35,649 nucleotides of DNA from Nitrospira japonica (lineage in GTDB: Bacteria > Nitrospirota > Thermodesulfovibrionia > UBA6902). The translations under genes were made by a program, and so were the position numbers. This document shows, piece by piece, positions 4,718-32,495 of the stretch. The stretch lies in the NCBI GenBank assembly GCA_020723105.1, contig DYJL01000029.1:1-35649 (forward strand), read 5' to 3'. The stretch's first letter is position 1, and each line of letters opens with the position of its first letter. The notes beneath the pieces were generated by a model. That model was not told the origin of the DNA. It searched no databases and was given only the letters and a program-made list of their open reading frames with translations.

Positions 4718-4746
4718 TTGACAATGGCTGGTCTTTCTGTTATAAA
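4718..4746 (+). promoter_or_regulatory. sigma-70 type promoter for the PilZ-SOR gene
   Basis: TTGACA (4718-4723), 17-bp spacer, TATAAA (4741-4746). The expected transcription start is near 4753, about 30 bp before the ATG at 4784. Because the promoter covers the upstream TTG (4718) and ATG (4724), those are unlikely to be the translation start. Confidence 0.7.
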
Positions 4747-4783: not shown

Positions 4784-5569
4784 ATGGAAAAAAGAGCCTT
4801 CGACAGAATTCCTTCAAATGCAGATATAAGATTATGTTTTGAGAATGATATTAATACCGGCAAACTGATAAATCTCTCCAGAAACGGCATGCTTATAAAC
4901 ACAAAAGTGTGCTTCCCGCTGAAAACTCAATTTGAAATTCTTCTGCCCATGGAAGAAGAAATCCTGAGAATTCCTGCAATAGTTACCAGACTGTTAAGAA
5001 AAGGAGACAGCTATGACAGCATAGGTGTTGAACTTTTGGAAGCTCCTGCAAAATATTTTGAATTTATAGACAGTCAGACCAATTTTATTAAAACCAGCAA
5101 AAAACCTATAAAGACTTTTGTATGCACTGTTTGTAATCATGTAGCCTTCAACACAGCTCCAATTAATTGTCCTTTCTGTTCAGGCTCCATTGACAATTTC
5201 GCCGATACTTCCAGCGCCGTAAACGTTTTAGAGAACTTTAAGGTACTTACTGAATTTGAAAGGAAACATTTTCCCATAATAACTATTTCTAAAGAATACG
5301 GCCCGGACCAGGATTGCAAATATATAAACGTTCATGTCAAGATTGGCGAAATACAGCATAAGATGGATGTTGACGACCACATTGCTTTCATAGATCTTTA
5401 TTTAAATCATCTGCACCTCAACAAAAATTGCATCGCAAGGATCAATATGAGTTGCCATATAATGAACCCTGAGACAACTTTCCGTCTTAATGACGTAACA
5501 CCCGGAATCCTTACCGTTATCAGCAATTGTAACGCCCACGGAAGCTGGATGGCTGAGACAAAGATTTAG
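4784..5569 (+). CDS. PilZ domain - zinc ribbon - superoxide reductase (desulfoferrodoxin-like) fusion protein
   Basis: A 261-residue three-part protein. Residues about 1-100: PilZ domain with the c-di-GMP-binding signatures RAFDR (4-8, RxxxR) and NLSRNG (30-35, N-x-S-x-x-G). Residues 114-132: a rubredoxin/rubrerythrin-like knuckle pair C114-x2-C117 and C129-x2-C132. Residues about 155-261: superoxide reductase (neelaredoxin/desulfoferrodoxin centre II) fold, with KHFP (H162), H192 and H199 in QHKMDVDDHI, and C249/H252 in CNAHGSW. These match the four histidines and one cysteine that hold the catalytic iron. Oddities: seven instead of the usual six positions separate the second and third histidines, and the Glu before Lys-His is Arg. 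Superoxide reductases reduce superoxide to peroxide in anaerobes. I infer a cytoplasmic enzyme or redox sensor controlled by c-di-GMP. The start follows from the promoter at 4718-4746. Confidence 0.85.
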   Translation: MEKRAFDRIPSNADIRLCFENDINTGKLINLSRNGMLINTKVCFPLKTQFEILLPMEEEILRIPAIVTRLLRKGDSYDSIGVELLEAPAKYFEFIDSQTNFIKTSKKPIKTFVCTVCNHVAFNTAPINCPFCSGSIDNFADTSSAVNVLENFKVLTEFERKHFPIITISKEYGPDQDCKYINVHVKIGEIQHKMDVDDHIAFIDLYLNHLHLNKNCIARINMSCHIMNPETTFRLNDVTPGILTVISNCNAHGSWMAETKI

Positions 5570-11190: not shown

Positions 11191-14506
<3,316 letters not shown>

Positions 14507-29543: not shown

Positions 29544-29673
29544 GGTTGTTTTATGGTTCAGGTTATGATACGCTGGATGTATCAGCTTGTCAAAAACTTT
29601 CTTATGGAAGTCTATGAAGAGCACTATTTTGAATTACAATAACAGGCATGAGAACGCTCAAGAGGAGTTCATA

Positions 29674-30057
29674 ATGCCTAAAAGGAAAGCTCAGCTAACC
29701 GAGGAAGGTAAAAGCTTCGGCGAAAGGTTAGCCCGGTTCCGGCAGGCTGCCGGGTATTCCCAGAGAGAGCTTGCCGCTGAAACCGGAATATCTCAACGTA
29801 TGGTTGTTTACTATGAGAAGGAATGCGAACGCATTCCCGTTCAACTTTTGCCGGTGTTCGCTAAGGTCCTCGGCATATCGGCGGATCAATTGCTGGGATT
29901 GGAGAAGACCAAAGACAACGGCAAGCGTCAAGACAGCCGCCTATGGAGAAGATTCAGTCAGGTCGAGAAGCTCCCCCCGCCTAAACGCAAGCAGATAGTC
30001 CAACTTCTCGACACCTTTTTGGAGAGCAAACGACTCAAGAAGGCCGGCCAACCATGA
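29674..30057 (+). CDS. XRE-family transcriptional regulator
   Basis: 127 residues. The helix-turn-helix domain (about 15-70) reads GERLARFRQAAGYSQRELAA, ETGISQRMVVYYEKE, then VQLLPVFAKVLGISADQLLG, followed by a tail PKRKQIVQLLDTFLES. Start MPKRKAQLTEEGKS is chosen because AGAGGAG lies 9 bases upstream; an earlier ATG-like start has no such site. The stop overlaps the ATG of the next gene by 4 bp. It probably controls the toxin-antitoxin pair downstream. Tails of related regulators survive at 32514 and 34278. Confidence 0.9.
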   Translation: MPKRKAQLTEEGKSFGERLARFRQAAGYSQRELAAETGISQRMVVYYEKECERIPVQLLPVFAKVLGISADQLLGLEKTKDNGKRQDSRLWRRFSQVEKLPPPKRKQIVQLLDTFLESKRLKKAGQP

Positions 30058-31420: not shown

Positions 31421-32495
31421 GTCAGCCCTTGAAATTATACAAACTTTTCTCAATTTGTGAGGCCTTCCTTTTCATTTTCCGGTTTCCTTTTACCTTAACT
31501 TTTGTCTTCTGATAAATCTTGGAAACAGATGAATAACTCAATCCCCCAACCATTTCCCCTATTTCATTGTTTGTTGCGCCCGTTCTCTCTTTCATCAGAT
31601 AAATAGCAACATCTCTTGGTTCCGACAACTTAATCCCTTCTTTTTTTTGCATATTCATGTAGTGATCTGAAACTGCCTCAAGCACGTCTCTTATACTGAA
31701 AGCCGCCCGTAACTCTTTCCTGCGGGAAACTTCATCCCTTTTGGAATTTTCTTCTTTTATTGTCCTAAGCGTTTCTTTGATAAATCTTGTGCTGCCAAGA
31801 ATCATTCCGCCATAAACGTCTTTTGCCGGATTATCCAGATCAATTCCAACTGCACTCTCTACAAACTTCCGGTAATTTTCTTTGGCGTTGCCATTTTTGT
31901 ATTCTACTAATCCAAGCACTAAATGGTCCGTTATTAATTCATTTTGAGTGTTTGAAGTATACATCTTATAACTGCTGTATTGATAAGATTCAGGCCGTTC
32001 TACTATTCCCGCCCTGACCGGATTCAGATGAACATACCTGCTTAGTTCAAGCAGGTAATTATTCTTATCCACCATAAACGATTTATATCTCCCCTGAAAC
32101 AAATGGCCGCTTCTTTTCGTTTTTTTATTGAAATAGGTTGTGTAGGATCCATTGATATAATGCATCGCTCTACTGAGGTTGGCTTCCGGGGTTTCGATAA
32201 TGAGATGATAGTGATTGCTCATCAATACGTAACAATGGATCATAATCTTGTACTTATTCCTGGCATTGGCAAGATACTCTATAAACTTCTCGTAATCTCT
32301 TTTGCATGAATATATTTTCTTGCGCTCATTCCCCCTCGCAGTTACATGATAAACAGCCCCCTCATATTCCATTCGTAACGGCCTTGCCATCGTGTCCCCT
32401 CAGACTTTGATGCAATAGAATAAAGAACTCCGCCCTCCCAAGTCAATTTTATTTTAATTGTTTGTCCTAAAATTACTTTTTCAAGGGCTGACCCC
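31418..32495. mobile_element. RAYT (REP-associated Y1 transposase) element
   Basis: Inverted copies of a 16-bp sequence, GGGGTCAGCCCTTGAA at 31418-31433 and TTCAAGGGCTGACCCC at 32480-32495, bound the transposase gene. The transposase stop codon lies inside the left copy. Related solo copies are at 26656-26670 and 34255-34270. The element lies immediately 5' of the remnant of rhs tip 3. Confidence 0.8.
31422..32390 (-). CDS. REP-associated tyrosine (Y1) transposase with DnaA-like C-terminus
   Basis: 322 residues. Starts MARPLRMEYEGAVYHVTARG; has the HuH motif HYHLII (MSNHYHLIIETP), the region SGHLFQGRYKSFMVDK, and RYVHLNPVRAGIVERPESYQ with the tyrosine-bearing helix typical of IS200/RAYT Y1 transposases. 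A C-terminal 100-residue extension (RELRAAFSIRDVLEAVSDHY and GATNNEIGEMVGGLSYSSVS) is an HTH resembling the DnaA DNA-binding domain, common in long RAYTs. All catalytic motifs are intact. It ends NFKG, encoded by the repeat itself. Confidence 0.93.
   Translation of the reverse strand: MARPLRMEYEGAVYHVTARGNERKKIYSCKRDYEKFIEYLANARNKYKIMIHCYVLMSNHYHLIIETPEANLSRAMHYINGSYTTYFNKKTKRSGHLFQGRYKSFMVDKNNYLLELSRYVHLNPVRAGIVERPESYQYSSYKMYTSNTQNELITDHLVLGLVEYKNGNAKENYRKFVESAVGIDLDNPAKDVYGGMILGSTRFIKETLRTIKEENSKRDEVSRRKELRAAFSIRDVLEAVSDHYMNMQKKEGIKLSEPRDVAIYLMKERTGATNNEIGEMVGGLSYSSVSKIYQKTKVKVKGNRKMKRKASQIEKSLYNFKG

Follow-up and report, generated by a model that had tools for sequence, protein, structure and literature searches.

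A PilZ, rubredoxin-like ribbon and superoxide reductase fusion with a replaced metal ligand in one Nitrospirota family

Superoxide reductase (SOR) domains are known both alone and behind other modules. The two-iron enzyme (desulfoferrodoxin, Dx-SOR) carries a four-cysteine site, of the desulforedoxin pattern CX2CX15CC, N-terminal to its centre II domain. According to the available part of the SORGOdb article (PMC3116461), an HTH-Dx-SOR class adds an N-terminal, DNA-binding helix-turn-helix regulatory domain to the SOR module; a small "atypical" class is also described there, and no PilZ fusion is named in that part. Shorter proteins of about 150 aa, found in Omnitrophota, Elusimicrobiota and Nitrospirota (L048-L079) and here called unfused ribbon-SOR, consist of a CxxC-x11/12-CxxC ribbon followed by a SOR domain. 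Those of Omnitrophota and Elusimicrobiota, where the ribbon is rubredoxin-like instead of desulforedoxin, are fairly numerous and are not named as a class in the same part of SORGOdb. On the side of c-di-GMP signalling, the hemerythrin-linked enzymes (PMC9388753) join a non-heme iron domain, with a diiron site, to domains making or breaking c-di-GMP, under redox control; in the YcgR-type receptors of Leptospirales, as far as the available part of PMC11800159 describes them, PilZ is fused to a GAF-like domain.

The protein described here has features of each. Like HTH-Dx-SOR, it carries an N-terminal regulatory domain on a SOR module, but this domain is PilZ, which receives c-di-GMP rather than making or breaking it; the partner of PilZ is a metal/redox domain, not a GAF-like one. 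The cysteine site has the spacing CxxC-x11-CxxC, shared with the unfused ribbon-SOR and different from desulforedoxin, and one centre II histidine is replaced. A reading made from the sequence alone knew of no described protein joining PilZ and SOR, and the literature search agrees: PilZ or c-di-GMP appears with SOR in coincidental co-mentions only, in a search that covered few subscription papers and neither InterPro nor UniProt. None of the domains is new in itself; what is provisionally new is their combination, together with the ligand change shared by the whole clade.

The gene lies in a contig of 35,649 nucleotides, analyzed as a whole and indicated below as the window. The main features, all on the forward strand, are the following.

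4718..4746, +, sigma-70-like promoter TTGACA-N17-TATAAA (hexamers 4718-4723 and 4741-4746), read from the sequence
4784..5569, +, whole fusion gene, stop included (P0001, 261 aa), from translation and end-to-end ortholog alignment from ATG 4784
4784..5083, +, PilZ domain, residues 1-100, from Pfam PF07238 and Foldseek
4793..4807, +, RxxxR c-di-GMP motif (R4, R8), invariant in 17 orthologs
4871..4888, +, NxSxxG c-di-GMP motif (N30, S32, G35), S and G invariant, position 30 N or D
5111..5209, +, rubredoxin-like ribbon CxxC-x11-CxxC (C114, C117, C129, C132), from conserved cysteines and a RUBY_RBDX match below cut-off
5246..5566, +, SOR (desulfoferrodoxin centre II) domain, residues 155-261, from PF01880 and Foldseek

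The open reading frame is translated without interruption, and the start at ATG 4784 agrees with the N-termini of 16 orthologs; an alternative TTG start at 4718, present in the list of open reading frames, overlaps the promoter-like element and was discarded. The same TTGACA-N17-TATAAA arrangement is found ahead of the fusion gene in L031-L035. It is missing from the output of a promoter scan, which accepts a second hexamer only if it ends in T. Between der and bioD, the gene has an intergenic space to itself.

The proposed fusion of PilZ, a zinc or rubredoxin-like ribbon and a SOR domain was borne out by the domain searches, both Pfam models scoring above their gathering cut-offs: PF07238 (PilZ) at residues 2-89 (34.8 bits, cut-off 22.5, E 2e-8) and PF01880 (Desulfoferrodox) at residues 157-257 (58.9 bits, cut-off 22.2, E 8e-16). 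The cut-offs of two NCBIfam models were not reached: P0001 scores 44.9 with TIGR00332 (cut-off 61.9) and 18.4, far under the cut-off of 146.9, with dfx_rbo. Its cysteines follow CX2CX11CX2C and the desulforedoxin pattern CX2CX15CC is absent. An AlphaFold2 model, built on a 29-sequence alignment (mean pLDDT 86, pTM 0.59), defines each domain well and leaves their relative placement uncertain. When submitted to Foldseek, its N-terminal part matches the c-di-GMP-bound PilZ structures 4xrn, 4rt1 and 5xly (probability 1.00), and its C-terminal part matches solved superoxide reductases, with a TM-score of 0.80 on target length for 6gq8.

Both PilZ motifs noticed in the sequence are present and kept: RxxxR and [DN]xSxxG are complete in 17 of 17 aligned orthologs. 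R4, R8, position 30, S32 and G35 correspond to the residues that bind c-di-GMP in PilZ domains, and conservation of the motifs suggests that this domain binds it too. In the window genome, 16 GGDEF and 13 PilZ loci are found, so c-di-GMP signalling is very likely active there.

The metal site of the SOR domain was examined by ungapped alignment of the ligand columns, first to the N. equitans SOR and that of P. horikoshii and also to a further 74 sequences; columns were counted in 19 fused proteins and in 57 unfused relatives, 39 of them ribbon-SOR. The relevant positions are given here.

5267..5269, +, His162, ligand 1 (KHxP), invariant in all groups
5357..5359, +, His192, ligand 2, invariant in all groups
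5375..5377, +, Asp198, where the third His ligand canonically stands, with 17 Asp and 2 Asn among the 19 fused proteins
5378..5380, +, His199, adjoining the lost ligand, His in 17, Tyr in 1 and Arg in 1 of the 19 fused proteins
5429..5431, +, Cys216, in 19/19 fused and 0/57 unfused
5453..5455, +, Cys224, in 19/19 fused and 0/57 unfused
5528..5539, +, Cys249 and His252, the Cys and fourth His ligands (CNxHGxW), invariant in the fused clade

All five ligand positions of the SOR iron centre had been claimed from the sequence. Four of them, H162, H192, C249 and H252, are indeed there, and are invariant in the fused clade (17 aligned orthologs; 19/19 in the larger alignment). The third histidine is not: every one of the 19 fused proteins has Asp or Asn in its column, against His in all 57 unfused ones, leaving the Fe(His)4(Cys) set incomplete throughout the clade. 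The histidine taken for it, H199, is variable (Arg in L005/L034, Tyr in L016), and the extra residue supposed to lie between the second and third histidines does not exist: the spacing from H192 to I200 and Y206 is exactly canonical, which puts Asp198 in the column of the third His, and H199 one column further on. The fused clade also features a five-residue insertion before C216, absent from the unfused ribbon-SOR, which likewise lack PilZ, C216 and C224 and keep the third His in 39 of 39 sequences. As the fused proteins are related, the ligand and cysteine changes are those of one clade, not 19 independent events.

The usual Glu before Lys-His is missing, literally, as had been noticed: P0001 has R160 in that column. 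As a sign of altered chemistry, or of a sensor, its loss was rejected, since most bacterial relatives have Lys there and the N. equitans neelaredoxin/SOR reduces superoxide without that Glu, as reported in the available part of PMC3116461 (its reference B112). E159, three residues before the His, is invariant in the aligned sequences. Altered chemistry, perhaps that of a sensor, is still the favoured reading, for reasons other than those first given: the Asp/Asn at the third His and the two clade-specific cysteines.

In the closest unfused relative (L019/L206, G042) the third His is kept and Asn takes the place of the CxxH histidine (CSVNGSW), which suggests that the constraints on SOR had already begun to loosen in the lineage at large. 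By eye, its gene (L206:2294-2737) lies near a 362-aa minus-strand gene resembling a [NiFe] hydrogenase small subunit.

These columns bear directly on what the protein may do. The SOR domain has probably kept the ability to bind iron or another metal, and Asp, being a possible iron ligand, might still permit catalysis. The protein might thus be a working superoxide reductase, with activity or location controlled by c-di-GMP. Either Asp198 or His199 would then stand in for the third His, and electrons would reach the iron through the ribbon, the part played in two-iron SORs by the rubredoxin-like centre. Lys161, the catalytic lysine before the first His, is kept in 18 of the 19 fused proteins and His1, His2, Cys and His4 in all of them; every member has either Asp at 198 or His at 199; and the Glu loss alone, given the N. 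equitans case, is compatible with activity. This explanation is nevertheless considered unlikely: a histidine kept in all 57 other proteins is lost in all 19 of these, and Asn, found in two members, is a poor ligand. The genomes, discussed below, count on both sides.

A chance still smaller is assigned to an enzyme with a changed substrate (e.g. peroxide, NO or a sulfur species), created by the altered first coordination shell together with C216 and C224. The ordered replacement of one ligand, along with two invariant new cysteines, would fit it; the neighbouring genes, however, give no clue to a substrate, and no SOR with such a change was met in the literature searched.

The two CxxC knuckles of the ribbon, C114, C117, C129 and C132, were correctly recognized and are invariant, being present in 19/19 fused proteins and in 39/39 unfused ribbon-SOR. 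The RUBY_RBDX match (residues 112-139) scores 19.8 bits, under the cut-off of 26.5, and the ribbon of the fused proteins lacks the Gly usual after rubredoxin CxxC pairs. The four cysteines would hold one metal, either Fe or Zn. The weak resemblance to rubredoxin and the loss of a SOR ligand would both suit a structural or protein-interaction adaptor, where ribbon and SOR-like site hold zinc for stability only and PilZ alone carries the signal. Such an adaptor appears about as improbable as the working reductase: the near-invariance of the four SOR ligands, of Lys161 and of the Trp of CxxHGxW in the fused clade exceeds the needs of a scaffold, and two redox-capable cysteines have been gained.

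The fusion architecture is present in 18 genomes, all among the 37 examined from the family of the window, and in none of the remaining genomes of a 230-genome search of the class, where no other long SOR frame contains PilZ. It was not found elsewhere among 84,980 species genomes, searched by peptide patterns excluding the third His, which divergent fusions could escape. Named records bearing it are Nitrospirota/Thermodesulfovibrionia assemblies, with the one exception of "Bacterium BMS3Abin06"; the carriers are uncultured subsurface bacteria of one Nitrospirota (Thermodesulfovibrionia) family. In the tree, the fused proteins group together (one clade, support 100/97) and branch from inside the PilZ-less ribbon-SOR proteins of Nitrospirota, and a single fusion event in one ancestor is thus the simplest reading. 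No PilZ gene was seen within about 1.5 kb of an unfused ribbon-SOR in the Nitrospirota loci.

Wherever dS is not saturated, dN/dS ranges from 0.06 to 0.19 for PilZ as well as for SOR, which speaks against decay of the SOR half. Chance or an assembly artefact was discarded on the basis of this purifying selection and of the occurrence in 18 genomes from independent assemblies; a phage origin was also discarded, viral contigs holding no relative. One genome contains a second fused copy (L047, G008:C13), where the first half of PilZ is out of frame with the rest; the copy is either a paralog in decay or a product of misassembly. C216, C224 and the replaced third His are all present in it.

In the window genome the fusion is the only SOR domain, as a working reductase would lead one to expect, and the same genome encodes an Fe/Mn SOD. 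Among the 12 carriers of the fusion that were checked, 9 encode SOD or a conventional SOR, and G005 encodes an unfused ribbon-SOR in which no ligand is missing, bringing to 10 of 12 those with another superoxide defence. None was found in G001 (89% complete) and G031 (85% complete). Since most carriers already have such a defence, the case for a reductase is reduced; this allows a non-enzymatic role, without proving it. The suggestion that the protein ties superoxide detoxification to c-di-GMP is accordingly weakened, both by the ligand loss and by the SOD or ordinary SOR of most carriers.

A conserved operon partner was looked for and none is shared across the family: neighbours differ by sublineage, bioD being downstream in that of the window. 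In another sublineage (L040:6867-7445 and six others) the gene directly downstream encodes an S30AE domain (ribosome-hibernation-like) fused to a cold-shock domain. A palindrome like GCATAGTTGCGCAACTATGC lies about 100-190 bases upstream of many fusion genes of sister genera (L037, L039, L041, L047 and others), and is absent upstream of the window gene; the exact TTGCGCAA occurs in 5 of 17 fusion upstream regions, versus about 1.3% of random 350-base stretches. Similar palindromes also precede several genes for PEP-CTERM proteins (3 among 25 tested; loci noted L161, L167, L159 and L158) and may possibly mark a shared regulator of matrix proteins.

Elsewhere in the window, positions 11191-14506 of the minus strand hold a second, broken rpoC, in pieces distributed over three frames, with about 265 middle residues missing and 49-83% identity to the intact rpoC on G000:C53; a smaller rpoC remnant is found near the fusion gene of G005. 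Towards one contig end (29587-32390) there are a helix-turn-helix protein (29587-30057) and an IS200-like transposase (31422-32390) with a DnaA-C-like helix-turn-helix.

One of the five standard ligands being lost, a redox-responsive regulator is more likely than a detoxifying enzyme. The preferred reading, held at about even odds and by analogy with the hemerythrin-linked c-di-GMP enzymes (PMC9388753), is that of a soluble c-di-GMP receptor, whose former SOR module would now be a regulatory redox/metal module. Somewhat below even stands the more specific proposal that the SOR fold is a redox or oxygen sensor within the receptor, the loss of the third His and the gain of C216/C224 having turned an enzyme into a switch. 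In such a receptor the N-terminal PilZ would bind c-di-GMP, and the four ribbon cysteines would hold one metal, Fe or Zn; the SOR domain, with three His and the Cys ligand kept, Asp/Asn at the third His and two new invariant cysteines, would bind iron or another metal. Redox, oxygen or metal status, and not fast superoxide turnover, would set the state of the protein, and the state of the metal module and c-di-GMP occupancy may jointly decide its action on a partner. Both the sensing and the coupling between domains are put forward as proposed features of the model.

The fused set, with Asp/Asn and two extra cysteines, and the unfused set, with His, make the question testable by single-residue swaps. 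If the preferred reading is true, the family would offer a clear test case of a metalloenzyme becoming a signalling domain, the loss of the ligand going back to one common ancestor. Attachment and motility are steered by c-di-GMP, and oxygen ranks among the chief reasons an anaerobe has for moving or attaching: in this one Nitrospirota family, a single protein would link oxidative state to c-di-GMP signalling and, while the known non-heme-iron links are on enzymes making or breaking c-di-GMP, here the link would be on the receptor side.
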